Source: Sinomonas notoginsengisoli (GTDB lineage: Bacteria > Actinomycetota > Actinomycetes > Actinomycetales > Micrococcaceae). Taken from it: a DNA stretch of 64,000 nucleotides. Location: positions 1-64,000 of the forward strand of contig NZ_JAIZDP010000009.1 in the NCBI RefSeq assembly GCF_021554725.1. Direction: 5' to 3'. Positions within the stretch are counted from its first letter, which is position 1. Every line of letters begins with the position of its first letter. Of the stretch, positions 18,256 to 43,922 are shown piece by piece. The position numbers and the translations under genes were made by a program. The notes under the pieces were generated by a model that was given only the letters and a program-made list of their open reading frames with translations, was not told the origin of the DNA and ran no database searches.

Positions 18256-18344
18256 GCATGGCAGGCCTCCGGCTGCACAGCAGGCGCTCGGCAGCATAGC
18301 AGGCGCTGGTGCGGGCCTGTTATGCCGTTTGGGGCCTGTTGTGC
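18256..18344. repeat. Periodic repeat array A, 3' side of the nuclease-like gene
   Basis: Units of the motif GCAYRGCAGGC start at 18256, 18275 and 18294, exactly 19 bases apart, and are followed by two inverted units GCCTGTTRTGC at 18315 and 18334, also 19 apart. Direct and inverted units are mutually complementary: 18275 pairs with 18334 (GCAC with GTGC) and 18294 with 18315 (GCAT with ATGC), so the C/T difference between units is matched by a compensating change in its partner. The array ends 31 bases from the stop codon of the gene at 18376-19338. Confidence 0.88.
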
Positions 18345-18375
18345 TCCGCAGATTAGCGGGACTTGACCGAGCGCA

Positions 18376-19338
18376 CTATGCAGAAAGCTTCCGTGCCCGG
18401 GCGAATGCGGTTTCGAGTTTCGCAACGATGACGCCCGGGGTCATCAGCTCCGGCCAGCGCGTACGCACCATCGTCCAGCCATCGTCCATCAGCGCCACCT
18501 CGCGCTGCCGTTCGAGGAGCAGAGCCTCTGACGTTGGACGGTAGTCGAAGTACTTGGCAACTCCGTCGAACTCCAGAATGACCAAGAGCTCCGGCCAGGC
18601 GAAGTCCGCCCGGAACAGTCCATGCCGCGTGGGGATCTCGTACTGGAGGACCGGAGAAGGAATGCCGGACGCTGCGAGTGCCAAGCGCGTCCGCGTCTCC
18701 CCGGGAGACTCGGACTTCCCGTCCAGGACCGGGAGGAGGTCCTCCACTCTGCGGTATCCGCGCATCGCCCCTGTGCGCTCGGCGGCGGCGCGGACCCCCG
18801 CGAGAGTCGCTCCACGCCGGAGGGCGCTGTCTCCAACGATGGCAGCCCCTTCAAGGCTCAGCGTGCGTGCGCAGTCGGCGACTGTGCGTTCGATCCCCAC
18901 CACGTTCGCGATCCGGCCGGGCGAGAGTCTCATGTGGACGAGATCGCAGCCCGGGACGATGAACGAATGCGCCCGCACGTCACTTCCATGGCTCGACTTC
19001 GATCCTGAGTAGGGGACCGTGACATGGACCTGCGGCCCGGCATTCCACGTCGTCAGGCGATGGATCCGGGCCGCTGAGGCGTGGCTGTAGACCGCTGTGC
19101 CGTTGGTCGAGAGCCAGTGGGCCTCGATCCTCAGCCGATCCTGCTCCCACGGCTTGAACCCGAACCAGACCGAGCTGCGGACGTACACGCCGCGCCGCAG
19201 CCGGACGAGCTCGCGGCGCTGCACGGCCTCGGTGAGGACTCGGTGGTCGATGCCGCGCGCCGCGAGTTCCCGAGTCGATGCGACAGTCGCGTCGGGCCAT
19301 CGCGCCTCGAAGAAAGTGGTCAGCCGGGGTGCGTTCAT
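18376..19338 (-). CDS. DUF559-type nuclease-like protein with AbiEi-like N-terminus, bracketed by repeats
   Basis: Protein of 320 residues in two parts. Residues about 5-55 look like the winged-helix of AbiEi-type proteins (STRELAARGIDHRVL, then LVRLRRGVYV). The C-terminal part (about 205-310) has a Vsr/DUF559-like restriction-endonuclease pattern: Glu214 in SPGETRTR, Asp245 in FRADFAWPE, and LEFDG with Glu256 and Asp258, then a helix and a final WTMVRTRW strand. Between them, SHASAARIH and IERTVADCARTL are typical of this family in actinomycetes. The gene stands alone, bracketed on both sides by 19-bp-spaced repeats of one sequence. A second gene of the same plan lies at 42924-43847. Nuclease activity is inferred. 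Confidence 0.75.
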   Translation of the reverse strand: MNAPRLTTFFEARWPDATVASTRELAARGIDHRVLTEAVQRRELVRLRRGVYVRSSVWFGFKPWEQDRLRIEAHWLSTNGTAVYSHASAARIHRLTTWNAGPQVHVTVPYSGSKSSHGSDVRAHSFIVPGCDLVHMRLSPGRIANVVGIERTVADCARTLSLEGAAIVGDSALRRGATLAGVRAAAERTGAMRGYRRVEDLLPVLDGKSESPGETRTRLALAASGIPSPVLQYEIPTRHGLFRADFAWPELLVILEFDGVAKYFDYRPTSEALLLERQREVALMDDGWTMVRTRWPELMTPGVIVAKLETAFARARKLSA

Positions 19339-19418
19339 GGTTGGAGTCTTGCGCCTCGAAGGGTGCCCGTCGCTGCGCTGTCACGCCATGTGGATACCCG
19401 GCAGCGAGCCGTCACTCC

Positions 19419-19488
19419 TCCTGGCAGGCCCGTACCGGCATGACAGGCGTTGGTGCGGGCCTGTTGTGCCGTTGCGGGCCTGTTGTGC
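19419..19488. repeat. Periodic repeat array A, 5' side of the nuclease-like gene
   Basis: A degenerate unit (TCCTGGCAGGCC, 19419) and GCATGACAGGCG (19438) are 19 bases apart, followed by inverted units GCCTGTTGTGC at 19459 and 19478, again 19 apart. The spacing between last direct and first inverted unit (21 bases) is identical to the array on the other side of the gene, and both arrays share the central TGGTGCGGGCCTGTT. It begins 81 bases upstream of the start codon at 19338. Confidence 0.87.
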
Positions 19489-19516
19489 GCGCGGCTCCGC
19501 ATGCGCGGGCCGGAGC

Positions 19517-20254
19517 CTAGCCTCCCGCGCCGTCCTCCGGAGCCACGGGCCCCTCGGGAGGCCGGGGTGCCCCGAGCCGGCCGAACAGCACCGCTGCCGC
19601 CATGGTATTCCCCACCAAGTAAGCCGCGCAGGCGGCCAGGCCCACGAGGGCGATGAGCAGCACGGAGCCGCCCGAGACGTACGTGATAAGCGCCGCCAGC
19701 GCGCCCGCCACCATCGCGTTGAAGCACGTGAGGAAGAACGCGGTGCTGGAGATCGCGTGCAGAGGGATCGGCCGGCTCCGTCCCAGGAAGTAGGTGGCGA
19801 ACACACCCTGGCGGTCGTCTGAGGAAGAGGTCACGAACGCGTCCTCGATCCCGGGCGCGAGCTCCCGGTAGGCGCCGCGCAGCCGGTTCATCCCCGCGAT
19901 GAGCAGGTGGTCCTCCTCGCTGCCGATCGACACGCGCAGCAGCGTCAGTGACCCGAGCACCAGCAGCATCGACGTGAGCCCGATCGCCATCACCCAGAAC
20001 CCCGTCCCGAACCCCGTGGCCTGCGCCACGAGGGCCAGCCCCACGAGAGACGCCGAGGAGACGGTGAGGTGGATGCTGATCCGGCTCATGAGCTCGTTCC
20101 ACAGCATGCCGCGCGTGCCGAGGAGGCTCCAGTGCTCAGTGGCCAGGATCGTCGCGACCACCGCGGGCGGCACCGCCTCAGGCAGCGGCTCGTGCGGCGG
20201 CGGTGGAGCCGAGGAGACGGGAAGCGGAGGCGCGAGGTGCGGTTCGGCGCTCAT
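19517..20254 (-). CDS. Conserved membrane protein of unknown function
   Basis: Protein of about 245 residues. A Pro/Ala-rich cytoplasmic head (about 40 residues) is followed by two adjacent hydrophobic segments near 75-120, a soluble middle with LLIAGMNRLRGAYRELAPGIEDAFV, and two more hydrophobic segments near 170-225. It resembles proteins annotated only as hypothetical membrane proteins in related actinomycetes; I cannot name a function. The start at 20254 (MSAEPHLAPP) is a choice among two close in-frame candidates. Confidence 0.65.
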   Translation of the reverse strand: MSAEPHLAPPLPVSSAPPPPHEPLPEAVPPAVVATILATEHWSLLGTRGMLWNELMSRISIHLTVSSASLVGLALVAQATGFGTGFWVMAIGLTSMLLVLGSLTLLRVSIGSEEDHLLIAGMNRLRGAYRELAPGIEDAFVTSSSDDRQGVFATYFLGRSRPIPLHAISSTAFFLTCFNAMVAGALAALITYVSGGSVLLIALVGLAACAAYLVGNTMAAAVLFGRLGAPRPPEGPVAPEDGAGG

Positions 20255-20350
20255 GATCCATGGTGGTCCCCGGCTGCGGCGGACGTAAAGCCCACCACCA
20301 CGCCGCATTCCTCAACAGGAGCGCACGACGCCGCGGGCGCTCCCCGAGCG

Positions 20351-20786
20351 TCAGGAGGCGGCTGGCGTCGTACGCACCATCACGGAACCAAGCCGCACCT
20401 CGGCGGAGGCGCGGACGATCCGCACGATCACGGCCTTCTCCACGACGCCGCGGACGAGTTCCTCGAGCTCGCCCGGCGGAGCGCCACCATTGATGTCGAC
20501 GTCCAGCGTCACCCCGGTCGACCGGGTGAGCGCGCCGCCCAAGTCCCCGTCGGCGCGGACGCAGACGCGGGAGACGGCGTTTCAGAGCGCGGCGGCGCCG
20601 TGGAGGTCGTTGAACACGCACGTGGCACGGCTAGGTGCAGGATGTGGCCGCCGGACGGGAGGGCAACCGACACCTCGGCCGCCTCCGCCTTGTGGTGCCG
20701 GATGAAGAGCCCCTCGGTGGGAACCGCGTCGGCTTGGCGACCCGGCGCCGTCGTGATGCCCGCCGCGAAGTCCGTGGCCGCCGTCT
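20351..20786 (-). pseudogene. Decayed OsmC/Ohr-family gene
   Basis: Read on the minus strand the region encodes pieces of an OsmC-like protein in changing frames. The first piece, from about 20785 to 20630, reads TEGLFIRHHKAEAAEVSVAL and then LPSGGHILHLAV; a frameshift near 20625 leads to ATCVFNDLHGAAAL, which stops at an in-frame TGA, and the same frame continues NAVSRVCVRADGDLGGALTR and TLDVDINGGAPPGELEELV to a stop at 20351. A cysteine before FND and the later strand-helix order fit OsmC-type peroxide reductases. Two lesions and no clear start indicate a pseudogene rather than one sequencing error. The universal stress gene upstream on the same strand may once have been its operon partner. 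Confidence 0.6.
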
Positions 20787-20788
20787 CC

Positions 20789-21664
20789 CTAGCCGAGCGG
20801 GTGGGACTCGACGCGCTCGTAGTCGCGGGGGACCACCACCATGGGTACTGGCAGCGAGCGGAGCACCTTGTTCGCTGTCGAGCCGAGGAACAGCTGGTTC
20901 TTCCGCGCGAGCCGGCTCGAGCCGATCAGGGCAAGCTCCCCGTCGAGCCAGTCGATGCTGTCCACGGCCTCCTCGAACGTGCGGCCGTGGGCCACTTCGA
21001 CGGCCGCCTCGTGGCCCTCGGGCAGCCGTCTGGCGGCAGCTGCGAGAACGGTGTTGGCATGGCGGTGCGCGGCGTTGATGTTCTCGCCGAACGCATCAGC
21101 CCGCTCGTCGAGCTCCACGAGCGAGACGAAGCGCAGCGGGACGTCGCGCCGCCCGGCGGCGACCAGCGCGACGTCGACCGCCGCCTCCGAGCCCTGCCGC
21201 TCGCCGATGAAGGCGGTGATCCGCTCGATTGGGTCCGTGCGCTGGTAGCCGCGCGGCGCGAGCGCCACCGGGATGGGCGAGGCGTGCAGGAGGGCGTTCG
21301 CCACGGAACCGACCGTGGAGCGCTTGAACAGGCCGTTGCTCGCCGCGCCGACCACGATCAGCGCGGCCTCGAACTCCACAGCCGCCTCTATGAGCGTGGC
21401 GGCGAAGGAGCGGCCGTGGCGGACGTGGAATGTGGCCTGAACGTCCTCGGGCACCAGGGAGAGGGCCTCGCGCTGGGCCGTCAGCGTCCGCTGCTCCTCC
21501 GGATGCACCCTGGGGCCATCTGGATTCGCGGCGACGTACGGCGCGTCCTGCGAGAGCACCAGCATGAGGTCCAGCGAGGCGTCCTGAGCGCGCGCTATCG
21601 CGACCCCCAGCGCCACCGCATCCGCACCCCGCTGGTCCGGCTGGTATCCGACGACGTAACGCAT
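20789..21664 (-). CDS. Universal stress protein, tandem UspA domains
   Basis: Cytoplasmic protein of 291 residues with two UspA domains (about 1-145 and 150-285). The first domain ends with an ATP-binding type loop (VVGAASNGLFKRSTVGS), the second has LIGSSRLARKNQLFLGSTAN followed by VPMVVVPRDYE. Such proteins accumulate under starvation, oxygen or nutrient stress; their biochemical role is often unclear. The ATG at 21664 has GGAAGG at proper spacing. Its stop codon abuts the decayed OsmC gene. Confidence 0.9.
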   Translation of the reverse strand: MRYVVGYQPDQRGADAVALGVAIARAQDASLDLMLVLSQDAPYVAANPDGPRVHPEEQRTLTAQREALSLVPEDVQATFHVRHGRSFAATLIEAAVEFEAALIVVGAASNGLFKRSTVGSVANALLHASPIPVALAPRGYQRTDPIERITAFIGERQGSEAAVDVALVAAGRRDVPLRFVSLVELDERADAFGENINAAHRHANTVLAAAARRLPEGHEAAVEVAHGRTFEEAVDSIDWLDGELALIGSSRLARKNQLFLGSTANKVLRSLPVPMVVVPRDYERVESHPLG

Positions 21665-21792
21665 GGCCTTGCCTTCCATAGATCGAGTCGCGGCAGACAA
21701 CGAAGGCGCCTGGGAATTTCCGCGCGCCCTCGTCCGGTCTGCGCTGATACCGCAGACTCTACCGGCGTTGCAGGCCAGACGGGCCGTGTCGC

Positions 21793-23154
21793 TCAGGCGA
21801 CGGAGCGGATCGCCGCCTCGAGCACATCGAGGCCGTCGCCGAGCAGCTCGTCGTCGATGACGAGCGGCGGCAGGAGGCGGATCACGTTGCCGTACGTGCC
21901 GCACGTGAGGATGATGACACCCTCCTTCAGGCAGTAGTCGGCGATCCTCTTGGTCGCGTCGGCATTGGGCCGCTTGGCTGTTGATGCGCTTCCGCGCTCT
22001 ACGAACTCGAGCGCCAGCATGGCCCCCCGGCCGCGGATGTCGCCGAGAATGCTGTCCTCCCCGAGCTCGGCCTGGAGCTTGGCGAAGCGCTCCTTGACGA
22101 TGCCCTCGATCTCGCGGGCGCGGCCGCGCAGGTCCTGGGAGGCCATGGTCTCGATCGCTGCGAGGGCTGCGGCGCACGCGACGGGGTTGCCGCCGTAGGT
22201 GCCGCCCAGGCCGCCGCGGTGGACGGCGTCGAGCAGCTCGGCGCGGCCCGTGACCGCGGAGAGCGGCATGCCGCCCGCGATGCCCTTCGCCGTGGTGATG
22301 AGGTCCGGGACCACGCCCTCGTGCTGGACCGCGAACCACTCGCCCGTGCGGGCGAAGCCGGACTGCACCTCGTCCGCAATGAAGACGATCCCGTTCTCCT
22401 TGGCGAACTCGGCGATGCGCGGCAGGAAGCCGTCCGCCGGGACGATGAAGCCACCCTCGCCCTGGATGGGCTCGATCAGGATGGCCGCGATCTCGTCGGC
22501 GCCGATCTGCTTGCTCATCATGAGGATGGCGCGCTCAGCGGCCTCCTTGCCCGTGATCTGGGGGTTCTCCTCGCGGAACGGGTAGCTCATCGGTGCACGG
22601 TAGATCTCGCCTGCGAAGGGACCGAAGCCGTGCTTGTACGGCATGGCCTTGGCGGTGAGCCCCATCGTGAGGTTGGTGCGGCCGTGGTAGGCATGGTCGA
22701 AGGCCACCACGGCGCTGCGGCCGGTGGCGATCCGAGCGATCTTGATGGCGTTCTCGACGGCCTCCGCGCCGGAGTTGAACAGCACGGTGCGCTTGGCATG
22801 CTCGCCGGGGGTCAGCTCGTTGAGCTTCTCGGCGACGGCGACGTAGCCCTCGTACGGGGACACCATGAAGCACGTGTGCGTGAAGTGCTCGACCTGCTCC
22901 TTGACAGCACCCACGACGGCGGGGTCCGAGACGCCGACAGTGGTCACCGCAATGCCCGAGCCGAGGTCGATGAAGGAGTTGCCATCAACGTCGTGGATGA
23001 TGCCGCCATCGGCGTCCGCGACGTACACCGGCACCGAGGAGGCGACGCCAGCGGCGACCGCCTGGGCGCGGCGCGCGGCGAGCTCGAGGGACTTGGGCCC
23101 GGGGAAGTCCTTGAGGACCTTGCGCTTCTGCTCGAGCCGGTACTGGATGTCCAT
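21793..23154 (-). CDS. gabT: 4-aminobutyrate aminotransferase
   Basis: Class III PLP-dependent aminotransferase of 453 residues. The N-terminal VADADGGIIHDVDGNSFIDL, the middle VFNSGAEAVENAIKIAR and the active-site segment TTAKGIAGGMPLSAV with the PLP lysine near residue 290 identify GabT. It moves the amino group of GABA to 2-oxoglutarate, giving succinate semialdehyde. The ATG at 23154 has AAAGGAAC upstream. The divergent PucR gene and the dyad between them suggest dedicated regulation. No succinate semialdehyde dehydrogenase or GABA permease gene is next to it. Confidence 0.93.
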   Translation of the reverse strand: MDIQYRLEQKRKVLKDFPGPKSLELAARRAQAVAAGVASSVPVYVADADGGIIHDVDGNSFIDLGSGIAVTTVGVSDPAVVGAVKEQVEHFTHTCFMVSPYEGYVAVAEKLNELTPGEHAKRTVLFNSGAEAVENAIKIARIATGRSAVVAFDHAYHGRTNLTMGLTAKAMPYKHGFGPFAGEIYRAPMSYPFREENPQITGKEAAERAILMMSKQIGADEIAAILIEPIQGEGGFIVPADGFLPRIAEFAKENGIVFIADEVQSGFARTGEWFAVQHEGVVPDLITTAKGIAGGMPLSAVTGRAELLDAVHRGGLGGTYGGNPVACAAALAAIETMASQDLRGRAREIEGIVKERFAKLQAELGEDSILGDIRGRGAMLALEFVERGSASTAKRPNADATKRIADYCLKEGVIILTCGTYGNVIRLLPPLVIDDELLGDGLDVLEAAIRSVA

Positions 23155-23208
23155 GCCTGTTCCTTTCGTCCGTCCCACGATAATGCGGGCTGATCCGCCT
23201 CTTGAATA

Positions 23209-23250
23209 GCCGATCGCACGAGACGGAAGGAGAAGCATAGTGCGATCGGC
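23209..23250. promoter_or_regulatory. 11-bp inverted repeat operator between gabT and pucR
   Basis: GCCGATCGCAC (23209-23219) and GTGCGATCGGC (23240-23250) are perfect inverted repeats with a 20-base spacer, so their centres are 31 bases apart, about three helical turns. The right half overlaps the expected -35 region of pucR: TATAGT at 23264-23269 sits as a -10 element only 7 bases before the ATG, implying a leaderless pucR mRNA. It is the likely binding site of the PucR protein for controlling gabT and itself. Confidence 0.72.
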
Positions 23251-23276
23251 CAGCAACCGCCTCTATAGTTGACCGC

Positions 23277-24710
23277 ATGGCCCTGACACTGTCCGAGCTC
23301 CTCACCCACGCCGATCTGGGCCTCCGACTTGCCGGATCCGCTCCGGCTGGCCAGGACGACGAGATCCGCTGGGTGGCGGTCACCGAACTGGAGAATCCGG
23401 CACCTTTCCTCACTGGCGGTGAGCTCGTCCTCACCACGGGCGTTCGCCAGCGCACCGCGATCGAGCAGCGTCGCTTTGTGCGTGTGCTCAGGCGTGCCGG
23501 CGCCCTCGGCATCGGCTTCGGAATCGGGCTGGGCCACGACGGGATTCCCCCTGCCCTCATCGCGGAGGCCAACCGCTGGGGCCTCCCCGTTCTCGAGGTC
23601 CCCTACCGGACGCCGTTCATGGCCATCGGCAAGCTCGTGGCCGACTCCCACTCCGCGGACCACTACGCGAGCCTCGAACGGCTCATCGCCGCGCACCAGG
23701 TGCTTGCGCGCTCGCTCCTGACGGGCGGGGGGCTCCAGGACCTCCTCAAGCACCTCGGGACGATGCTCGGCACCGATCTGATCCTCACCCAGTTCACCGC
23801 CCAGCTGTACGCGTCCAGCCCTGACATCGGCCTGCCGACCATGGACCGGTGGATCCCCTACCCGGTGCCCACGGGCCGCCGGGACGCGTGCACCCTCTGG
23901 GCCAAGAAGCCCTTCGAGGACACAGGGATCATCTCGTACGCACAGAACCTCATCAGCATCGAGCTGAACAACCTCATGAAGCAGCGCCAGGCCCAGCGGG
24001 CCCTCGCCGGGCAGGTGATGACCGACGTCGTGCGCGGAACCCTCGAGGCAGACGAGGCCTCCCGTCGCCTCGCCGGCATTGGAGTGAACTCAACGAAGCG
24101 CAACGTGGTGCTGATCGCCGAATCCGCCGCCCACCACAAGAACCTGCGGGGCACTACGCTGCCGGCAGCGCTCGACGGCGCGGTGTCGGCAACCCTGGAC
24201 AGCGACCTCGTGGTGATGATCGAGGACGACGGCGCCCATGCCCCGAAGCTGGGGCGTGTCCTCGCCGACCACCTCACCGAGGCGGGAATCCACGCGACAA
24301 TCGGGATCGGCGGCTCCTACACCAAGCCCAATGGGCTCCGCTGGAGCTACTTCGAGGCCAAGGAGGCTGCTGGGCGGGGGCTCGACGTCAACGAGCCGGA
24401 GCGGCTCAGCCTCACCTCGCTGCTGCTCGCCAGCGAGGACGTTCCGCTGGGGGACATGGCGGGCGAGGCCATAGGCCCGCTCACCCGGTTTGACCGCCAG
24501 CACGGGTCGGAGCTGGTGCATACCCTCGAGACGTACCTGAACCTGAACGGATCCGTGGCGCAGGTGGCCGAACAGCTCAACCTGCACCGCAACACCGTCC
24601 GGTACCGGCTCGGGCAGATCGCGGAGCTCACCGGGTACGACCCGGCGGTCACGGCAGACCGCGTGCAGCTCTACCTGGCCCTCGCGGTCAAGAAGGTCGC
24701 GAAGGCCTAG
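23277..24710 (+). CDS. PucR-family transcriptional regulator of gabT
   Basis: Regulator of 477 residues. The N-terminal PucR purine-catabolism-like domain (about 1-120) begins MALTLSELLTHADLGLRLAG; the centre resembles a GGDEF-like CdaR fold, and the C-terminus carries the helix-turn-helix VAEQLNLHRNTVRYRLGQI that defines PucR/CdaR proteins. Regulators of this type next to gabT activate GABA use in other actinomycetes (for example GabR of Corynebacterium). Divergent orientation and the shared dyad support control of gabT. Ends at a strong terminator. Confidence 0.88.
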   Translation: MALTLSELLTHADLGLRLAGSAPAGQDDEIRWVAVTELENPAPFLTGGELVLTTGVRQRTAIEQRRFVRVLRRAGALGIGFGIGLGHDGIPPALIAEANRWGLPVLEVPYRTPFMAIGKLVADSHSADHYASLERLIAAHQVLARSLLTGGGLQDLLKHLGTMLGTDLILTQFTAQLYASSPDIGLPTMDRWIPYPVPTGRRDACTLWAKKPFEDTGIISYAQNLISIELNNLMKQRQAQRALAGQVMTDVVRGTLEADEASRRLAGIGVNSTKRNVVLIAESAAHHKNLRGTTLPAALDGAVSATLDSDLVVMIEDDGAHAPKLGRVLADHLTEAGIHATIGIGGSYTKPNGLRWSYFEAKEAAGRGLDVNEPERLSLTSLLLASEDVPLGDMAGEAIGPLTRFDRQHGSELVHTLETYLNLNGSVAQVAEQLNLHRNTVRYRLGQIAELTGYDPAVTADRVQLYLALAVKKVAKA

Positions 24711-24716
24711 CCCTCA

Positions 24717-24762
24717 CCGTTTCGGGCACGGATCCCGATGCGGAGATCCGTGCCCGAAACGG
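24717..24762. terminator. Bidirectional terminator between pucR and fprA copy 2
   Basis: A perfect 18-bp stem, 24717-24734 with 24745-24762, and a 10-base loop lie in the 61-base gap between these convergent genes. Confidence 0.9.
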
Positions 24763-24771
24763 GTCCAGGGG

Positions 24772-26217: not shown

Positions 26218-26250
26218 GAGGGGTTCCTTCTGGCTTCGTCTTCGGTTGGT

Positions 26251-32015: not shown

Positions 32016-34235
<2,220 letters not shown>

Positions 34236-35136: not shown

Positions 35137-35181
35137 GGTTCTCCCTCGCTCAACCACCGATGGTTGAGCGAAGTCGAAACC
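35137..35181. repeat. REP-like palindrome after cysN
   Basis: TCGCTCAACCA (35146-35156) and TGGTTGAGCGA (35161-35171) form an 11-bp perfect stem with a CCGA loop; GGTT and AACC at the outer ends extend the symmetry. It touches the cysN stop codon and can serve as terminator. The half-sequence GGTTGAGCGNAGT also occurs at the beginning of cysH (38211-38240), suggesting a dispersed repetitive palindrome. Confidence 0.75.
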
Positions 35182-36564: not shown

Positions 36565-37508
36565 CAGAAGTACCCGTCCTTCTTGCGGTCTTCCATGGCC
36601 GCCTCGGAAATGCGGTCGTCCGCGCGGGTCGCCCCGCGCTCGGTCAGCGTCGACGCCGCCACCTCGCGCACCACGTCCGCCACGGTGAACGCATCGGAGA
36701 GCACGGCGCCGGTGCAGGACATGTCCCCCACCGTCCGGTAGCGCACCGTACGCACGACGACGTCCTCCCCCTCGCGCGGCCGGCTCACCTCACCGACGGC
36801 TCGCCACATGCCGTCGCGGACGAACACGTCGCGGTCATGGGCGTAGTAGATGGAGGGCAGCTCGATTCCCTCGCGCTCGATGTACCGCCAGATGTCCAGC
36901 TCGGTCCAGTTCGAGATGGGAAACGCACGCACGTGCTGGCCCACGGTGTGGCGCCCGTTGTAGAGGTTCCACAGCTCGGGGCGCTGGTTGCGTGGGTCCC
37001 ACTGGCCGAACTCGTCGCGCAGGGACAGGATGCGCTCCTTGGCGCGGGCCTTGTCCTCGTCGCGGCGGCCGCCGCCGAACACGGCGTCGAACCTGTTCCG
37101 CTCGATCGCGTCCAGCAGCGGGACGGTCTGGAGCGGGTTGCGTGTGCCGTCGGCCCGCTCGGCGAGCTCACCGCGGTCGATGAACTCCTGCACCGAGCCG
37201 ACCACGAGCCTGAGCCCGAGCCGCGCCACGGTGCGGTCGCGGAAGTCGAGCACCTCAGGGAAGTTGTGGCCCGTGTCCACGTGCAGGACGGGGAACGGGA
37301 TGCGGCCGGGCCAGAAGGCCTTGGCCGCGAGGTGCAGCATGACCACGGAGTCCTTGCCGCCGGAGAACAGCATGGCGGGGCGCTCGAACTCCGCGACGAC
37401 CTCGCGGATGATGTGGATCGACTCGGCCTCGAGGGCGTCGAGGAGGGGCAGGGCCGGAGCCGGCACGGCCGTGCTCGCTCCGGCTGTCTCTTCTACTTGG
37501 ATGCTCAT
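36564..37508 (-). CDS. cysD: Sulfate adenylyltransferase subunit 2
   Basis: Adenylyl-transferring subunit of ATP sulfurylase, 314 residues. FSGGKDSVVM (around residue 50) is the PP-loop that binds ATP; the C-terminal GAAMEDRKKDGYF-like end (actual ISEAAMEDRKKDGYF) is conserved in CysD. The ATG at 37508 overlaps the cysH stop codon by 4 bases. Part of the sir-cysH-cysD-cysN operon. Confidence 0.96.
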   Translation of the reverse strand: MSIQVEETAGASTAVPAPALPLLDALEAESIHIIREVVAEFERPAMLFSGGKDSVVMLHLAAKAFWPGRIPFPVLHVDTGHNFPEVLDFRDRTVARLGLRLVVGSVQEFIDRGELAERADGTRNPLQTVPLLDAIERNRFDAVFGGGRRDEDKARAKERILSLRDEFGQWDPRNQRPELWNLYNGRHTVGQHVRAFPISNWTELDIWRYIEREGIELPSIYYAHDRDVFVRDGMWRAVGEVSRPREGEDVVVRTVRYRTVGDMSCTGAVLSDAFTVADVVREVAASTLTERGATRADDRISEAAMEDRKKDGYF

Positions 37509-38254
37509 ACGTGGAGTCCGCATTCTGTCTTGTCAGTGCCGGACCAGCGGCCGGCACGGGGATCTTCTCCTGGGGCAACGGGGCGCGTACAGGGCGCACA
37601 GCCGATCGAAGGGAACCCTTGGGCAAGGAGTGGATTGACGGGCAGGATGTTGTCCTCGGAGTACTGCATGAGTTGGTCGAAGGACCAGGCGGCGACGGGG
37701 TTCACCTTGACGAGGCCGTTCTTCTCGTCCCAGACCACGAGCGGCGTGTTGGTGCGGGTCGGTGCCTCGTCACGGCGCACGCCGGTGAACCAGAGCTCGT
37801 AGCCGGCAAGGGACCGGTGCAGCGGCTCGACCTTGCGCAGGGCGCAGCAGCGGCCCGGGTCGCGGGAGAAGAGGTCCTTACCCTCGGCCGCATCCTGCTC
37901 CGCGACGGTCTGCTGCGGGGTCACGTCGACGATCGTCACGCGCAGGTTCTCGGCTATTTCGTTCCGGGTCTGGTACGTCTCGGGGAAGTGGTAGCCCGTG
38001 TCGAGGAAGAGGACGTCCACGCCCGGCAGCTGGTCGGCAACCAAGGCGGGCAGGACGGCGTCGGCCATCGAACAGGCGACGGCCGCGGCCTCCACCGAGA
38101 AGTTCCTGGCCACCCAGCCGATCACCTCGCCGGCCGAAGCGTTCCAGCCGAGCTCCGCGGCGCCGGACTCGGCCAATGCCCTGAGCTCCTCGGCGGAGCG
38201 CTTCGCGGGCTTCGACTCAGCTCCACTCCGCTCAACCACTCTGGCATCCGTCAC
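37505..38254 (-). CDS. cysH: Adenylylsulfate (APS) reductase
   Basis: Thiol-dependent reductase of about 249 residues that converts APS to sulfite. GRCCALRK and GCAPCTRP supply the CC/CXXC cysteines of a (4Fe-4S) cluster, marking an APS- rather than PAPS-reductase, and KTECGLH holds the catalytic cysteine at the C-terminus. The start is GTG at 38254, overlapping the sir stop by 4 bases. The first 20 codons contain a sequence resembling the REP-like palindrome found after cysN. Confidence 0.94.
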   Translation of the reverse strand: MTDARVVERSGAESKPAKRSAEELRALAESGAAELGWNASAGEVIGWVARNFSVEAAAVACSMADAVLPALVADQLPGVDVLFLDTGYHFPETYQTRNEIAENLRVTIVDVTPQQTVAEQDAAEGKDLFSRDPGRCCALRKVEPLHRSLAGYELWFTGVRRDEAPTRTNTPLVVWDEKNGLVKVNPVAAWSFDQLMQYSEDNILPVNPLLAQGFPSIGCAPCTRPVAPGEDPRAGRWSGTDKTECGLHV

Positions 38255-39999
38255 GTCAAGTCCTCCTCGTCCGCGGCATGCGCCCACTCGGCGAAGGTCT
38301 GCTCCTCGCCCACACGGTCGGCGAGGTACCGGCGGGTGACGCGCTCGACGTAGTCGGGCAGGTCCTCGACCGTGACCTTGAGGCCGCGCACGGTGCGGCC
38401 GGTGCCGGCCTCCTCGCGGGAGTCGGAGGCGAGACCGCCGCCCAAGTGGACCTGGAAGCCGGGGGTCTGGCCGCCGTCGCCGTCAGGCAGGAGCTGGCCC
38501 TTCAGCCCGATATCCGCCGTCTGGATGCGCGCGCACGAGTTGGGGCAGCCGTTGATGTGCAGGGTGAGGGGCCGCAGGAGGCGATTCGCGCCGTCGTCCG
38601 CGGTGCTCTCCGGGGTCTCCGGCCCAAACCGCTTCTCGAGCTCGTCGATCGCTGCCGAGGCGGTGTCCTTCGTGTCCACGATCGCGAGCTTGCAGAACTC
38701 GATGCCGGTGCAGGCGATGGTCGAGCGGCGCCACGGGCTCGGGTTGGCGTAGAGGCCCAGCTCCTCGAGGCCGGCCACGAGCGAGTCCACGCGGTCCGGC
38801 TCGACGTCCAGCACCACGATCTTCTGGTGTGGCGTGGTGCGCAGGCGCGCAGAGCCGTGGGCCTCGATGAGGTCTGCGAGCTTCAGCAGGGTCTCACCGG
38901 AGACGCGGCCCACGGTCGGTGTGGCGCCGACGTAGAAGCGGCCGTCCTTCTGGCGGTGCACGCCCACGTGGTCGCCCGGCGTCGTGGGCTTCTCGGCGGC
39001 CGGCCCGTCCGGGAGCGGGCTGTCGAGATACTCGGTCTCGAGGATGTGCCGGAACTTCTCGGCACCCCAGTCGGCCACGAGGTACTTGAGGCGGGCGCGG
39101 TTGCGCAAGCGCCGGTAGCCGTAGTCGCGGAAGATGCTGGTCACGCCGACCCATGCCTCCGCGGCCCGGGAGGGCTCCACGAAAGCGCCGAGCCGGACGG
39201 CGATGTGCGCCGAGGTCGAGAGGCCCCCGCCCACCCACAGGTCGTAGCCCGGGCCCAGCTCGGGGTGCACCACTGCGACGAGCGCGAAGTCGTTGATTTC
39301 GTGGACCACGTCCTGGGACGGGTGGCCCGTGATGGCCGTCTTGTACTTGCGCGGGAGGTTCGCGAAGCTGTCGTCGCCGATGTAGCGGTCCGCGATCTCG
39401 CGGATGGCCGGGGAGGGGTCGAGGATCTCGTCAGCGGCGATGCCGGCCACCGGGGAGCCGAGGATCACGCGCGGGACGTCGCCGCACGCCTCGGTGGTGC
39501 GCAGCCCCACGGATTCGAGCCGGCGCCAGATCTCGGGCACGTTCTCGATCTCCACCCAGTGCAGCTGGATGTTCTGGCGGTCCGTGATGTCCGCGGTACC
39601 GCGGGCGAAGTCGCGGGAGATGGCGCCGATCACGCGCAGCTGCTCGGTGGTGAGCGCGCCGCCATCGATCCGCACGCGCATCATGAAGTAGCGGTCCTCG
39701 AGCTCGTGCGGCTCGAGGGTCGCCGTCTTGCCCCCGTCGATCCCCGGCTTGCGCTGGGTGTAGAGGCCCCACCAGCGGAAGCGGCCGTGCAGGTCGGTCG
39801 GGTCGATCGAGTCAAAGCCGCCGGCCGCGTAGATCGTCTCGATCCGCTCGCGGACACTGAGGCCGCCGTCCTCCTGTTTCCAGACCTCATTGGAGTTGAG
39901 CGGCTCGGTGCCGTCCACCTTCCACTGCCCGTTGGGCTTGGAGGCGCGCGGCTTGGGGCTCTTGGCCTCCGTGCGGGGGCGGGTGGCAGTCTCCGTCAT
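38251..39999 (-). CDS. sir: Ferredoxin-dependent sulfite/nitrite reductase
   Basis: Siroheme and (4Fe-4S) reductase of 582 residues. IACTGIEFCKLAI and HINGCPNSCARIQ provide the four cluster cysteines, the last bridging to siroheme; TDITDRQNIQLHWVE is the siroheme-binding loop. The family includes nitrite reductases (NirA), but the position at the head of cysH-cysD-cysN points to sulfite reduction. Electrons would come from ferredoxin, for which FprA copies are encoded in the window. The ATG at 39999 is chosen over an upstream in-frame start for family fit. Confidence 0.93.
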   Translation of the reverse strand: MTETATRPRTEAKSPKPRASKPNGQWKVDGTEPLNSNEVWKQEDGGLSVRERIETIYAAGGFDSIDPTDLHGRFRWWGLYTQRKPGIDGGKTATLEPHELEDRYFMMRVRIDGGALTTEQLRVIGAISRDFARGTADITDRQNIQLHWVEIENVPEIWRRLESVGLRTTEACGDVPRVILGSPVAGIAADEILDPSPAIREIADRYIGDDSFANLPRKYKTAITGHPSQDVVHEINDFALVAVVHPELGPGYDLWVGGGLSTSAHIAVRLGAFVEPSRAAEAWVGVTSIFRDYGYRRLRNRARLKYLVADWGAEKFRHILETEYLDSPLPDGPAAEKPTTPGDHVGVHRQKDGRFYVGATPTVGRVSGETLLKLADLIEAHGSARLRTTPHQKIVVLDVEPDRVDSLVAGLEELGLYANPSPWRRSTIACTGIEFCKLAIVDTKDTASAAIDELEKRFGPETPESTADDGANRLLRPLTLHINGCPNSCARIQTADIGLKGQLLPDGDGGQTPGFQVHLGGGLASDSREEAGTGRTVRGLKVTVEDLPDYVERVTRRYLADRVGEEQTFAEWAHAADEEDLT

Positions 40000-40070
40000 G
40001 CGTCCGAGGGTACGGACAGGGCCCAGCCCGCCTCTACGGCGCCGAAACGAGGGGTCACCGAGCGACGCAT
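39996..40070 (-). CDS. Possible coupled upstream frame of sir
   Basis: A 24-codon frame starting MRRSVTPRFGAVEAGW ends in an ATGA overlap with the sir start codon. The overlap would couple its translation to sir, as for leader frames. It has no clear ribosome binding site and no cysteine, so it may be chance. Confidence 0.22.
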   Translation of the reverse strand: MRRSVTPRFGAVEAGWALSVPSDA

Positions 40071-40158
40071 TTCGTCGCACTCGCCACCATCTGTGGCGGG
40101 TCCCTTGACTCCCACGCCCGCACCCACTTCGGCTAGGCCAAACGGAGGGTGGGGCGCG

Positions 40159-41373
40159 TCAGTGGCCGAAGGAGGTCCAGGGGTGGGTCGCGCCGTAGCG
40201 CCGGAGCCACAGCGCCAGCCCCACGCACACCAGATAGCCCGCGCCGACGGCCAGCCACCCGGCGCTGTACGCCCCGGTCGCGTCGGCCAGGACGCCCATG
40301 AGGAGCGGGCCGAGTGAGAACCCGGTGTACATTCCCGCGGCGAGGACACCCGAGGCAACGCCGATCCGGTCCGAGGGGACCACCACGAGGGTGGCCGCGT
40401 TCATGATCACGTTGGCGCCCAGCACGGTTGCCCCGTGCAGGGCCACGCCGATCCAGATGAGCCACGGCTGATGCAGGGTGCCCGCGCCGAGCAGGCACAG
40501 CACCCCCACCACGGCGCCGAGCGAGAGCGTGAACAGGAGCCCGGACGGCCGCGCCCCGCGGGCCATGCGCCGGCCCCACAGGATGCGCGAGGACACCCCG
40601 ACGATGCCTGACACGCCAGCCGCCGCGCCTGCCAGCACGAGCGGGAAGTCCAGCTCGCGCACGGCGAACAGCGGCAGGTACACGTTGGTGGCCTGCATCC
40701 CGAGGCCCGAGAAGAACGCGAATCCGGCGAACAGCCACACCGAGAACGGAAGGGGACCGCCGGAGCCGTGGGCCGTGGCGGTGCGCCGGTTGGCGGGCTC
40801 GGCGGGGACCTGAGTGAACCCGTACGCGAGCAGGCCCAGCGCGATGACCGCAGCGAGCCCGAACGCGCCCTGCCAGCCCAGCCACAGCGCCACGGCCGGG
40901 AAGAACAGGCCCGAGAAGAGCTGGCTGGCCTGCACGCCGGACTGCTTGACGCCGATCCACCCGGGTCGCTTGTGCGTGGGCACACGGGTGACGATCACGC
41001 GGTTCGTGGTCGGATTCGAGATCGACTGGGCAGGCCCGGCGAGGATGACGGCGATCAGCAGCACCCAGAACGCGTTCGCGAGGGCGGCGACGACGAGCGC
41101 CACCACAGTGCCTCCGAAGATGAGCACGAGCTGGGTCCGCATCGTCGCTCGGTCGCTGAGCCGGCCGAGGGAGAAGCTGCTCACCGCCGCGGAGGCGAAC
41201 ACGGCACCGGCCAGAAGGCCGAACTGGGACTGGCTCATGTCCAGGCTCGCAATGATCAGCGGGCTCACAGCACTCAGCCCGTAATTGAGCAGCGGGCCTA
41301 CGCCCATCGCCGCGGCAAGGACCACAAGGAGGCCGACGGGCGCCTTCTGCGGCACGGAGGCTTGACGGCTCAC
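40159..41373 (-). CDS. MFS transporter in the sulfur assimilation region
   Basis: Twelve-helix transporter of about 404 residues, starting from GTG at 41373, 7 bases after the chelatase gene. MGVGPLLNYGLSAVSPLIIASL opens helix 1, and the loop LGRLSDRATMRTQLVL after helix 2 is an MFS motif A. It belongs to the CynX/NimT-like or related MFS groups. Its place between siroheme synthesis and sulfite reductase genes suggests a role in sulfur or nitrogen compound transport; the substrate cannot be assigned. An ATG at 41451 is an alternative start overlapping the chelatase gene. Confidence 0.8.
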   Translation of the reverse strand: MSRQASVPQKAPVGLLVVLAAAMGVGPLLNYGLSAVSPLIIASLDMSQSQFGLLAGAVFASAAVSSFSLGRLSDRATMRTQLVLIFGGTVVALVVAALANAFWVLLIAVILAGPAQSISNPTTNRVIVTRVPTHKRPGWIGVKQSGVQASQLFSGLFFPAVALWLGWQGAFGLAAVIALGLLAYGFTQVPAEPANRRTATAHGSGGPLPFSVWLFAGFAFFSGLGMQATNVYLPLFAVRELDFPLVLAGAAAGVSGIVGVSSRILWGRRMARGARPSGLLFTLSLGAVVGVLCLLGAGTLHQPWLIWIGVALHGATVLGANVIMNAATLVVVPSDRIGVASGVLAAGMYTGFSLGPLLMGVLADATGAYSAGWLAVGAGYLVCVGLALWLRRYGATHPWTSFGH

Positions 41374-41380
41374 GCGCCGC

Positions 41381-42139
41381 TCACTTTTCCGGACCGGCGG
41401 TGCCGCCGGTGCCGGCCGACGCGATGGCCTCGTCAAACCGGTCCAGGACAATCTGGGCCATCACGGGCGCTGGCAGCAGCGGAGGCGTCACCGAATCGGC
41501 CCCGGCCTTCGCGAGCTGGTCGTGGAAGTAGCCCGGCGCGAGGAGGTAGGAGGCGATGACGACCCGCATGCCGTCGTCCGTCCGGGCCTGCCGCGGCTCC
41601 CCCGGCGCCCGGGCCTCCTCTGCGCGAAGATCCGCCACGGCCTCCGGCACGCTCGGCGATGTGCTCGCCCCATAGCCCGGCAGGACGCGATTCGGGATCC
41701 GGTGCCGGAGCATGTCGGCGAGGGCCTCGACGTCCCGGGCCGCCTGTGGGTTCGAGGAACCGGCGGCGGCGAGCACGACGGCGTCGTCCGCACCCAGCCC
41801 AGCCTCGCCAAGGCGCACCTCGAGGAGGTCGGCAAGCCGCTCGTCAGGCCCGAGAGGCCCCGCCGCAAGCGTCCCGGGCCGCGATGCGACTGCCCTTGCG
41901 ATGTCCACCTTGACGTGGTAGCCCACGCTCAGCAGGAGGGGCACGACGACGGCGCGCGCCTGTGCGGGCAGGCCCGCCACCACGTCCGGAAGCTCGGGGC
42001 CATGCACGTCCACATACGCGTCGCGGACCTCCAGGTCCGGGCGGGCCCCGCGGACCTGGTCGATGAGGGTCAGAATCGCGGCCCGGCCCTCGCGATTGCC
42101 GGTCCCGTGGGCGCACGCAACGAGGATGTCTCGGGTCAT
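41381..42139 (-). CDS. Sirohydrochlorin ferrochelatase-like protein (CbiX/SirB family)
   Basis: Protein of 252 residues made of two CbiX-like halves. The first half has the metal-binding histidines of the family, His11 in CAHGTGN and His75 in GYHVKVDI; the second half keeps YLLAPGYFHDQLA. Such proteins insert iron into sirohydrochlorin to complete siroheme, the step not covered by the CysG fusion at 26251-27546, which lacks a separate chelatase. First gene of the sulfur row; transcribed away from the SUKH-like gene. Confidence 0.86.
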   Translation of the reverse strand: MTRDILVACAHGTGNREGRAAILTLIDQVRGARPDLEVRDAYVDVHGPELPDVVAGLPAQARAVVVPLLLSVGYHVKVDIARAVASRPGTLAAGPLGPDERLADLLEVRLGEAGLGADDAVVLAAAGSSNPQAARDVEALADMLRHRIPNRVLPGYGASTSPSVPEAVADLRAEEARAPGEPRQARTDDGMRVVIASYLLAPGYFHDQLAKAGADSVTPPLLPAPVMAQIVLDRFDEAIASAGTGGTAGPEK

Positions 42140-42209
42140 GAGGCGAGCGTACCCGCCCGCCGTTCACGTCCCGGAAACCAGCACTCAGCCCGCGGTTAGG
42201 ATGAATCCC

Positions 42210-42647
42210 ATGAACGAGATGTTCCTGGAGAGGTTCCGCGCGCTTGTCCCCAAGTACCTCGAGGATCCGTGGCAGCCCGCGGACGGCATCTCGGGGGACG
42301 AGCTCGATGAGGCGCTCGAGGAGCATGCGTTCGCGATTCCCCAGGCGCTTCGAGAGTTCTACCTCGCCCTCGGCGGCTCCGAGCTCATGGAGGCCTACCA
42401 CTACTTCTGGGACCCCGAGGAGCTCGAGGTCGACGAGGAGGGCTTCCTCATGTTCCTCGAGGACGAGGAGGAGCAGTTCACCTGGGGCATCCGCGCTGGC
42501 GACCTCCGCGTCCCCGACCCGATCGTGTACCGCAAGAACAACGCCCGCGGCGAGTGGGTGTCCGAGGACGGCACCTTCTCCGAGTTCACGTTCGACATGT
42601 TCGATTGGGTCTTCAGCGAGGACGACGCGGAAGACGAAGAGGGCTGA
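42210..42647 (+). CDS. SMI1/KNR4 (SUKH)-like protein
   Basis: Acidic protein of 145 residues. FAIPQALREFYLALGGSELM is the typical SUKH core, followed by EELEVDEEGFLMFLEDEEEQ and WGIRAGDLRVPDP. Proteins of this fold are often immunity proteins of polymorphic toxins, but many stand alone, and no toxin gene is visible here. The ATG at 42210 has a better-spaced AGGA than the alternative ATG at 42201. Ends before a strong hairpin. Confidence 0.72.
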   Translation: MNEMFLERFRALVPKYLEDPWQPADGISGDELDEALEEHAFAIPQALREFYLALGGSELMEAYHYFWDPEELEVDEEGFLMFLEDEEEQFTWGIRAGDLRVPDPIVYRKNNARGEWVSEDGTFSEFTFDMFDWVFSEDDAEDEEG

Positions 42648-42752
42648 ACCTTCCCTTGTGAAGTGATTTACCACTATCACTGGACTTTTGACACATCTGT
42701 CATATGCTGGTTTGTGGGTTCACTTTTCTAGCCTCCAGTGAATCCGGGTGCG

Positions 42753-42805
42753 AACGGAAAAGGGCCCTGGGAGTCAGCATTGGCCGACTCCCGGGGCCAT
42801 CCGTT
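42753..42805 (+). terminator. Long hairpin after the SUKH-like gene
   Basis: GGCCCTGGGAGTC (42763-42775) pairs with GACTCCCGGGGCC (42786-42798), with one G-T pair, and AACGGA/TCCGTT flank it (42753-42758, 42800-42805), followed by TTACCC. It ends the upstream transcript and separates it from the repeat array B. Confidence 0.75.
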
Positions 42806-42817
42806 TACCCCCAAACG

Positions 42818-42856
42818 TTGAGGGGTCATGTCCCTACGTTGAGGGGTCATGTCCCT
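42818..42856. repeat. Periodic repeat array B, 5' side of the nuclease-like gene
   Basis: Two identical units TTGAGGGGTCATGTCCCT at 42818-42835 and 42839-42856, exactly 21 bases apart with ACG between. Each unit is itself a hyphenated palindrome (AGGG, CATG core, CCCT). The array ends 67 bases before the start codon at 42924. Confidence 0.92.
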
Positions 42857-42875
42857 GAGCGAACGGCGAGCGGCC

Positions 42876-42895
42876 TGTGGATAACTCAATCCACA
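42876..42895. promoter_or_regulatory. Dyad upstream of the second nuclease-like gene
   Basis: TGTGGATAACTCAATCCACA has 6-bp inverted arms and an 8-base spacer, 28 bases before the ATG. Its left part TGTGGATAA equals a DnaA-box consensus in reverse, but a lone box is not an origin. It may be the operator of this gene. Confidence 0.4.
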
Positions 42896-42923
42896 ATCCC
42901 GCCAACGGTGCCACGATACGGGC

Positions 42924-43847
42924 ATGACTACGCCCACTGCGCTCGAGATCATGCTCTCCTCACCATTCACCTCCGTCGAGGCCCGGCGGCATGGCCTGGA
43001 CTACTTCGACCTCCTCCGACAGAACGTCAGGCACGCGAGCCGCGAACTCTATCTGCCCGGCGACGGCGAGCCAGCTCTCACAGATCGTGTCCGGGCGCAT
43101 CTGGCACTGACCCCGGGCGCGTGGGCGTCACACAGAACCTCGACGGCCCTCCATGGGCTATGGCTCCCAGACTCGTCAAGTGACCAGTCAACGCTCCACC
43201 TCAGCAAGCCCGCCCATCTCCCGCGTGTCAGGCGGGATGGGGTGGTGGGGCACCGGGTCCGCGTCTTGCCCGGCGAGGTCGTGGAGCTTGGGTCCGGCAT
43301 CCTCGCCAGTTCTCCGGCACGGAGCTGGCTCGAGATGGGCAACGAGCTGGGGCCCGTTGCCCTCGTTGCTCTCGGCGATCAGCTCATCCGCAGACCGCGG
43401 CCCAACTTCGAGGGGCGCAGCGAGCCCTACGCCACGAAGGAGTCGCTCGCGAAGATGCTCCGCGACCACTACAAGATGAAGGGGGTAGCGAAATGCCGCG
43501 CGGCTCTGGCCGACATGCGGGTCGGCGCCGATTCCATCCCCGAAACCCTGCTACGCCTGTGCCTGCTGGCCTATGGCTTCCCCGAGCCCGAACTGCAGAT
43601 CGTCCTGAGGCCCAACGACGCGTTCTCCTTCAGCACAGACATGGGCTATCGGAACCTCAAGATCGCCATCCAGTACGACGGCGAGCATCACCTCACCGAC
43701 GACCAGCGCCGACGCGATGCTCGGCGCGATGCGGCATTCCGTGCCGCGGGGTGGGTGGTGATCATCGTGACAGCGGACGACCGCAACGACGACTTCGCCC
43801 GTGTCCGCTCCCAGTTGCGCGCGCTCTTCACCGCCCGCGCAGCGTAG
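42924..43847 (+). CDS. Second DUF559/Vsr-type nuclease-like protein, bracketed by repeats
   Basis: Protein of 307 residues with the same plan as the gene at 18376-19338 but distant in sequence. The N-terminal about 60 residues form the AbiEi-like part; SHRTSTALHGLWLP and the ILASSPARSWLEMG segment are the middle part; the C-terminal nuclease-like fold has Glu207 in IPETLLRL, Asp239 in FSTDMGY and IQYDGEHH with Asp252 and Glu254, followed by RDAAFRAAGWVVIIVTADD, as in Vsr-like endonucleases. The first acidic residue of the ExD pair is Gln250. Stands alone and is enclosed by 21-bp-spaced repeats in opposite orientation on the two sides. Activity and role are not known. Confidence 0.75.
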   Translation: MTTPTALEIMLSSPFTSVEARRHGLDYFDLLRQNVRHASRELYLPGDGEPALTDRVRAHLALTPGAWASHRTSTALHGLWLPDSSSDQSTLHLSKPAHLPRVRRDGVVGHRVRVLPGEVVELGSGILASSPARSWLEMGNELGPVALVALGDQLIRRPRPNFEGRSEPYATKESLAKMLRDHYKMKGVAKCRAALADMRVGADSIPETLLRLCLLAYGFPEPELQIVLRPNDAFSFSTDMGYRNLKIAIQYDGEHHLTDDQRRRDARRDAAFRAAGWVVIIVTADDRNDDFARVRSQLRALFTARAA

Positions 43848-43862
43848 ACGACCAGGTGGCGC

Positions 43863-43922
43863 AGGATTATGACCCCTCAACTTAGGGACATGACCCCTCA
43901 GCCTAGGGACATGACCCCTCAA
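43863..43922. repeat. Periodic repeat array B, 3' side of the nuclease-like gene
   Basis: Three units of AGGGACATGACCCCTCAA, the reverse complement of the array on the 5' side, start at 43863 (three mismatches), 43884 and 43905, exactly 21 bases apart. The array begins 15 bases after the stop codon. With the 5' array it forms inverted repeats enclosing the gene. Confidence 0.92.

Follow-up and report, generated by a model that had tools for sequence, protein, structure and literature searches.

A 64,000-nucleotide stretch of the Sinomonas notoginsengisoli genome (contig NZ_JAIZDP010000009.1, positions 1 to 64,000; here called the window) contains two genes for predicted nucleases, each of which is tightly bracketed by arrays of short, regularly spaced repeats. 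We consider it probable that such a gene and its flanking arrays form a unit similar to a REPtron, the pairing of a repetitive extragenic palindromic (REP) sequence with a REP-associated tyrosine transposase (RAYT), but built on a different enzyme. The repeat is found around the gene and is also scattered in places without the gene; the protein would bind the repeat and nick or cut the DNA there, which would drive both its spread and its homogenisation.

Two predicted nuclease genes between repeat arrays

The gene at locus 2 (42924–43847, plus strand) encodes a 307-residue protein of clade A. To its left are two identical 21-bp units with the core TGAGGGGTCATGTCCC on the plus strand (42815–42856), and to its right are three 21-bp units on the minus strand (43864–43923), the gene-proximal one of which is degenerate, so that the arrays on both sides point inward at the gene. 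Allowing up to three mismatches, the core has seven matches in the window, five of them within these two arrays; the mean number of matches in the shuffled window is 0.81, and none of 100 shuffles reaches seven.

The gene at locus 1 (18376–19338, minus strand) encodes a 320-residue protein of clade B. Whereas the arrays of locus 2 face inward, each flank of locus 1 is a self-contained palindromic array with units on both strands. The downstream array (18261–18344) is composed of 19-bp units with the core GGGCCTGTTGTGC, two on the minus strand (18275 and 18294) followed by two on the plus strand (18313 and 18332). The upstream array (19424–19488) has the same 19-bp pitch and contains degenerate inverted copies on the minus strand followed by two plus-strand units (19457 and 19476); as a single strand, it folds into one long hairpin (z −4.26). 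The count of locus-1 units in the window at three mismatches is at chance level (28, against a mean of 31.4), and we judge the arrays to be real because their pitch is regular and the two flanks match each other at 82% over 65 bp. The common design of two loci with differing proteins and repeats, which the original prediction from the DNA letters had described, is thus borne out. The fixed pitch of 19 or 21 bp that it proposed holds at both loci of the window but not for the family at large, in which pitches of 19, 21, 22 and 32 bp occur together with a subtype that has one long hairpin on each side.

Three further repeats were noted in the window. An 8-bp tandem repeat, GAAGGGCG, is present in four copies just outside the right array of locus 2 (43939–43971), and a tandem repeat with a 21-bp period (2.2 copies, 47117–47163) is situated inside a stretch covered by open reading frames (ORFs). 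A tandem array of a 16-bp unit occupies 6798–6873 (approximately 4.9 copies, the units partly palindromic, CCACC..GGTGG).

Both proteins are predicted to combine an AbiEi-like N-terminal part with a Vsr/EDxHD-type nuclease domain, an assignment drawn from Pfam, PADLOC and AlphaFold/Foldseek that agrees with the winged-helix-like N-terminus and PD-(D/E)XK-like C-terminus first suggested for them. In Pfam, protein 1 matches AbiEi_4 at its N-terminus (E 3 × 10−4) and protein 2 matches DUF2726, MTES_1575 and DUF559 at its C-terminus (E 4 × 10−4 to 3 × 10−3), all under the curated cut-offs. When relatives were scanned singly, DUF559 was found in 18/27 and MTES_1575 in 16/27 of the clade-A proteins, and AbiEi_4 in 18/22, MTES_1575 in 6/22 and DUF559 in 4/22 of those of clade B. 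The PADLOC AbiEi models match protein 1 with an E-value of 1 × 10−15 and protein 2 with one of only 8 × 10−5. The scan of both proteins with PADLOC returned no family besides AbiEi, and NCBIfam returned no match; identification with a known defence system was rejected on these results.

The AlphaFold models are confident (mean predicted local distance difference test scores of 90.6 and 90.1), and Foldseek gives a probability of 1.00 for the EDxHD/Vsr catalytic fold. For clade A, the best match in the PDB is the catalytic domain of I-Bth0305I (3r3p; template-modelling (TM) score by target 0.75–0.77, E 8 × 10−3). For clade B, the matches include the AbiEi antitoxin 6y8q (E 5 × 10−7), Rv2827c (1zel; E 4 × 10−4), and I-Bth0305I (TM score by target 0.78, E 0.06), with Vsr (1vsr; E 0.42) as a weaker match. 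The sequence-profile match to 3r3p reaches only E 0.54. From these profile and structure matches, clade B can firmly be labelled as AbiEi-like, whereas for clade A the label is tentative.

Alignment of the relatives identifies a set of conserved residues in the predicted nuclease domain. In clade A, these are Glu207, Asp239, the segment Q250xDG253 and His256 (locus-2 numbering): Glu207, Asp239, Gly253 and His256 are invariant in 27/27 sequences, Gln250 is found in 25 (Glu in 2) and Asp252 in 19 (Glu in 8). The clade-B counterparts are Glu210, Glu214, Asp245, the segment E256xDG259 and Lys262 (locus-1 numbering), of which Glu210, Glu214, Asp245, Asp258, Gly259 and Lys262 are invariant in 22/22 sequences and Glu256 is found in 21. 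(Of the 29 search loci L063–L091, alignment A1 left out L078 and L081, which have internal stops, and the partial L085; alignment A2 left out L122, with an internal stop, and L144–L150. Here and below, L-numbers denote loci and G-numbers the genomes of the comparison set.) Judging from the alignments and from general knowledge of the fold, the invariant residues are presumably catalytic.

Repeats and genes are paired across genomes

The repeat of locus 2 is dispersed in its own genome. The 3.59-Mb host genome contains 68 exact copies of the unit, and 85 occurrences of its 16-bp core at up to two mismatches; the reversed control yields none in either case. The units form 36 clusters of at most seven units in 35 loci (34 array regions and locus 2 itself), and neighbouring units on the same strand are exactly 21 bp apart in 40/44 pairs. 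Unit orders such as ++−−, −++, −−− and +++−−−− are found, and both orientations are present in 16/36 clusters. According to a crude gene caller, the genes on either side are convergent for 16 clusters, codirectional for 8 and divergent for 1; a further 10 clusters fall within an ORF call, and 1 is at an edge. Each unit contains two variable bases, and these are identical in 27/44 pairs of tandem neighbours (a fraction of 0.23 is expected; p 6 × 10−8) and agree in 7/16 pairs of inverted neighbours (p 0.05), as expected from local duplication or conversion. This genome-wide dispersal of a cognate repeat strengthens the analogy to REP elements and RAYT proteins with which the analysis began.

In order to relate the repeat to the gene, exact matches to the core TGAGGGGTCANNTCCC, with two free positions, were counted in 148 genomes (host included) that were also searched for the protein. 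The nine genomes with an orthologue of locus 2 at 68–100% identity contain 68, 75, 80, 45, 61, 21, 13, 16 and 7 copies, and the other 139 contain 0 or 1, as does the reversed control. The six remaining genomes of the same genus, whose best listed homologues are at most 64% identical (the listing gives no identity for G007), have 0, 0, 0, 0, 0 and 1 copies. Within the genus, at least two copies are thus found in 9/9 genomes with an orthologue and 0/6 without one (p 2 × 10−4, uncorrected for kinship); none of the genome counts given here and below is independent of kinship.

Other members of the family are paired with other repeats. A homologue in G010 is bracketed by units of GACGAGTGGNCACTTC at a 22-bp pitch; a search of 20 genomes for this motif at one mismatch gave 66 matches in G010, 15 in G006 and no more than 4 in any of the other 18, and the reversed control gave none in G010, 2 in G006 and up to 4 in the rest. 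A homologue in G008 is bracketed by a repeat with a 32-bp pitch, the core of which, at two mismatches in 20 genomes, has 216 matches in G008, 28 in G006 (a homologue there is flanked by this repeat type too) and 0–18 in the other 18, part of the latter being cross-matches to units of TTGAGGGGTCA (control 0–2). The hairpin repeat consists of TCGACTGCTCCGTAASTGTCG in inverted pairs, and a pair of such hairpins flanks a clade-A paralogue in each of G004, G008 and G011 (in G011, one arm of one of them exceeds the mismatch limit). Searched at two mismatches in 58 genomes, the hairpin motif is found 20, 31 and 27 times in these three genomes, 5 times in G022, twice in G032 and never in the other 53 or in the control; its copies read AAGTG in G004 and AACTG in nearly all instances in G008 and G011. 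For clade B, the flank motif GCATAACCGTCC of G008, counted as exact matches in 20 genomes, is found 23 times in G008, 7, 6, 5 and 4 times in G010, G006, G007 and G011, all four of the same genus as G008, and 0–2 times in the other 15 (control 0–1). Five motifs therefore peak in genomes whose family members carry them at their flanks. An additional 32-bp-pitch repeat, around TTTCGGGTACGC, has dozens of matches in G005 and G009; it brackets a G009 paralogue (C2:307748–308644, within the region C2:307641–308873) and is also found in the left flank of L152 (G009:C1:243100–245600). Outside Sinomonas, where dispersal was only sampled, 400 kb of G075 (another genus of the same family) contained three copies at two sites (control 0), and 400 kb of G105 (another family) contained one extra hairpin.

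The original prediction had named beforehand, as a test, the enrichment of periodic repeats near genes of this type, and such enrichment was found. A scan of a genome collection with one conserved clade-A profile peptide gave 261 relatives; the best 80 of these were kept, and all are labelled as Micrococcaceae genera save for one Sporosarcina record (L264, labelled Sporosarcina beigongshangi, has an Arthrobacter-like clade-A homologue, and the record may be mislabelled or contaminated). For the 78 homologues with enough flanking sequence (L227 and L270 were dropped for short flanks), we counted copies of a 10-mer common to both 300-bp flanks, using 486 other long ORFs from the same contigs as controls. 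At least three copies were found for 50/78 homologues and 6/486 controls (Fisher p 2 × 10−44), and at least four copies for 43/78 and 0/486 (Fisher p 3 × 10−43); at two copies, the corresponding numbers are 61/78 and 181/486. Among further Sinomonas paralogues, 17/19 were judged by eye to be bracketed on both sides, with L283 and L292 one-sided.

The repeats also change with the proteins, as had been anticipated for repeat type and protein clade. Repeat similarity tracks protein identity with a Mantel r of 0.42 (91/109 loci, 18 having too few repeated 8-mers; some loci entered twice), a value reached in 0/2000 permutations, and with an r of 0.22 among pairs below 70% protein identity. At less than 50% protein identity, only 1–7% of locus pairs have a repeated 8-mer in common; at more than 80% identity, this share is 82%. 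Upon removal of near-duplicates at 97% identity, 84 loci give an r of 0.39 and a share of 79% among pairs above 80% identity; removal at 90% leaves 76 loci, an r of 0.36 and a share of 75%, again with 0/2000 permutations in each case. The comparison left out L201–L204, L227, L270 and several paralogues (L283, L292 and L294).

In a sample of the phylum, clade-B relatives were found in 54/198 genomes. A repeat on both sides in at least three copies is present at 8/27 loci tested and 0/27 shifted controls (p 0.004), L314 and L330 (short) and the host's own locus, L301, having been left out. The eight positive loci belong to families f1, f17, f22, f33 and f40, and the other families tested never reach three copies. 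Three genomes from another family of the class (G184, G219 and G240) have 10–11 clade-B relatives each, and three loci in that family (L311, L312 and L315) have hairpin-like repeats on both flanks.

The ends of some transposons carry several transposase sites, and the inward-facing, multi-site arrays at a pitch of about 20 bp recall such ends. The repeats could accordingly delimit some other transposable element, such as a RAYT or a DDE transposon whose ends contain several sites of 19–22 bp, and the nuclease genes would be passengers between them. We regard this as highly improbable: the five motifs each peak where members of one protein family are flanked by them, bracketing at four or more copies is seen for 43/78 homologues and for none of the 486 control ORFs, and orthologous genes keep their neighbours across the species compared. 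Phages and plasmids were likewise considered as carriers and rejected. At the E-value limits applied, a relative of the locus-2 protein is encoded in just 1 phage record out of 50,697 and in 3 plasmid records out of 72,556, always at 31–36% identity, and this near-absence indicates that the genes are not typical cargo.

Turnover of the arrays and a proposed mechanism

Between species, array sites appear and disappear and the number of units changes. Flanking sequence identified ten pairs of array sites as orthologues from different species. In nine of them, the number of units, their orientation or the two-base variant is not the same; the remaining pair (L027/L164) has an unchanged layout with point differences. 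Seven array sites were also sought by their flanks in three genomes, and five were aligned. The site of L155 has an array in G009 and G005 and none in G000, and that of L157 has one only in G009. Three and four units were found at the L162 site, with none in G000, and likewise three and four at the L160 site, with at most one partial unit in G000. At the L161 site, G005 and G009 are unlike each other and G000 has remnant-like stretches. The arrays of L160 (in G009) and L162 (in G005) are situated inside sequence that is conserved on both sides, with no obvious gene boundary; as 21 is a multiple of three, they could sit in frame within genes. In the hairpin subtype, variants are in part shared by the two arms, which are more alike than re-paired arms (0, 100 and 158 of 5000 shuffles were as low as observed in G008, G004 and G011, respectively).

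These observations bear on whether the protein might be no more than a chromosome-wide DNA-binding factor, such as a regulator, a terminator-binding protein or a nucleoid protein. The arrays would then be sites selected by the host, those at the gene would be autoregulatory, and the nuclease fold would be a relic or serve some other purpose. AbiEi antitoxins are autoregulatory DNA binders, a constant spacing of about two or three helical turns points to cooperative binding, and 16/36 host clusters were placed between convergent genes by the crude gene caller. However, the residues presumed to be catalytic do not vary within either clade, which is unexpected for a pure binder; the sites come and go between related species, some of them inside conserved coding-like sequence; the presence of both orientations in 16/36 clusters argues against a fixed polarity; and bracketing on two sides is more than an operator requires. 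A role confined to binding is therefore unlikely.

Instead, we favour a unit in which the protein acts on its own repeat. In the mechanism that we propose, the AbiEi-like region would recognise the repeat unit, and phased arrays with a pitch of two or three helical turns (19–22 or 32 bp) would seat proteins side by side, whereas in the hairpin subtypes (approximately 58 bp) two proteins might occupy one palindrome. At or beside the repeat, the EDxHD/Vsr domain would introduce a nick or a cut. Repair or strand transfer could then duplicate units, change copy number, homogenise arrays and carry the prevailing variant to other parts of the genome, and a new array would occasionally be seeded at a permissive place, often a gap between genes. 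Such a mechanism would account for the occurrence of the repeat at the flanks of the gene itself, for its absence from most genomes without an orthologue, and for the joint change of gene and repeat. Whereas bracketing, dispersal, covariation and turnover are observed, we infer that the repeat is bound, cut and thereby spread by this very protein, and that its pitch reflects proteins bound next to each other.

Several results weigh against this proposal. Neither excision nor target-site duplication was observed, nor was binding or cleavage. The nuclease-domain matches in Foldseek have E-values of only 8 × 10−3 (clade A) and 6 × 10−2 (clade B), and the 50 matches listed for clade A include no AbiEi structure. 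The repeat of locus 1 was rejected as a dispersed family in its own genome (28 matches, compared with 33 in the reversed control). A repeat on both sides falls under the threshold in 28/78 close homologues and at 19/27 loci of the phylum sample, in which 17 loci and 13 controls have it at two copies, a small difference. Hairpin variants present in one arm only (11, 15 and 12) outnumber those present in both (5, 4 and 5). In a comparison of five species, the protein (74–84% identity) is not clearly faster-evolving than all of its neighbours, three of which are 85–96%, two 74–90% and one 64–74% identical. The tandem arrays of locus 2 fold no better than shuffled sequences (z −1.43 and −0.12), so a hairpin intermediate does not suit every subtype, and a hairpin was rejected as the form common to all of them (in the same test, the L293 stretch clipped its hairpin and is uninformative). 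Lastly, none of the 15 copies of the GACGAGTGGNCACTTC motif in G006 lies within the three homologue loci examined in that genome. Repeats may thus also persist without a bracketed gene; these copies possibly represent repeats that have outlived their gene, or their homologue may be outside the three loci.

The nuclease might alternatively attack DNA, with the repeats serving as protective or sink sites that are retained where the nuclease is present. Gene and repeats do co-occur, the PADLOC AbiEi models match both proteins, and nuclease domains of the DUF2726 and MTES_1575 types are described from conflict-system proteins in an earlier study (PMC3710099). A self-marking or addiction system of this kind, which would act as a guard or a restriction-like selfish system, is nonetheless very unlikely in our estimation, as the number of units per site differs between species and neither a methylase nor an AbiEii partner is present among the eight neighbouring ORFs scanned (an EamA protein, a polyprenyl synthetase, a weak SMI1-like match, two ORFs with oxidoreductase matches and three without a match).

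Relation to REPtrons, homing endonucleases and AbiE

The proposed unit resembles REP/RAYT REPtrons in that a gene is situated between inverted copies of a short repeat that is scattered in the same genome. In RAYT units, as described in two reports, the flanking repeats are inverted, the presence of the gene correlates with the number or abundance of its cognate repeat, gene and repeat coevolve, and orthologues stay at a constant genomic place (PMC2817692; PMC3116915). The family shows all of these features in the cases that were examined. The layouts are also comparable, with parallels to the bacterial interspersed mosaic elements (BIMEs) and doublet hairpins of REP/REPIN systems in the same sources. 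Unlike RAYTs, the proteins studied here do not have an HUH/tyrosine enzyme: PF01797 (Transposase_17) is absent from their Pfam matches, and their conserved residues are acidic with an additional His or Lys. Unlike REPs, the units read lack a GTAG head, and phased tandem arrays of 19, 21, 22 or 32 bp are common. The hosts are actinobacteria, whereas the RAYT homologues that met the criteria of the 2010 study were from gammaproteobacteria only (PMC2817692); homologues were later named elsewhere, for example in Nostoc (PMC3116915). As the enzyme is not an HUH transposase, the family is not a RAYT, even though its working would be REPtron-like.

The predicted catalytic domain is similar in fold to those of the EDxHD homing endonuclease I-Bth0305I and of Vsr, with acidic residues and an ExDG/QxDG segment in the models. 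I-Bth0305I is reported to dimerise on a target just short of 60 bp (PMC3943268), and a DUF559 gene in a cyanobacterium was earlier assigned to the EDxHD family (PMC9403480). Unlike EDxHD homing endonucleases, the genes described here were not seen in an intron or intein setting, have a multi-copy repeat of their own and encode an AbiEi-like N-terminal half. In homing, a gene moves into the cognate site that has been cut. The orthologues studied here have the same neighbours in the species compared, and at most one copy above 64% identity to locus 2 is listed per genome; it is the repeat that multiplies, although the gene might home as well. The resemblance to the AbiE type IV toxin–antitoxin system lies in the N-terminal half of clade B, which matches 6y8q and 1zel, and in the PADLOC AbiEi models; the differences are that no AbiEii nucleotidyltransferase was found among the eight neighbours scanned, that a nuclease domain is present and that the repeats are dispersed.

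In the literature examined, the HUH-type tyrosine transposase (RAYT and relatives) is the only enzyme class tied to REP-like repeats, and CGTC REPs are stated in one report to have no dedicated transposase (PMC3733652). Among the matches listed in a search of titles and abstract beginnings from 5.39 million open-access papers, none connects dispersed repeats with proteins of the DUF559, AbiEi or Vsr-like types, which is weak evidence of absence, as subscription papers and preprints are mostly outside that search. A unit composed of a repeat and a dedicated enzyme is known; an unrelated enzyme in that role would be new.

On balance, we lean towards the view that AbiEi–Vsr/EDxHD nucleases are a second, non-homologous class of repeat-making enzymes. 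Many actinobacteria would have several diverged members in one genome, each creating and maintaining its own REP-like family. Tandem arrays and hairpins would then be two states of one system, and nuclease and repeat would coevolve rapidly. The findings suggest a second, unrelated route by which bacteria gain and keep such repeats; if this is true, an unrelated nuclease fold with the same gene–repeat pairing would be a convergent solution, and the family would offer dozens of protein–repeat pairs from which DNA specificity may be learned. It could also explain many unannotated palindromes in Arthrobacter-like genomes, as well as DUF559/AbiEi genes that are now called toxin–antitoxin or hypothetical.

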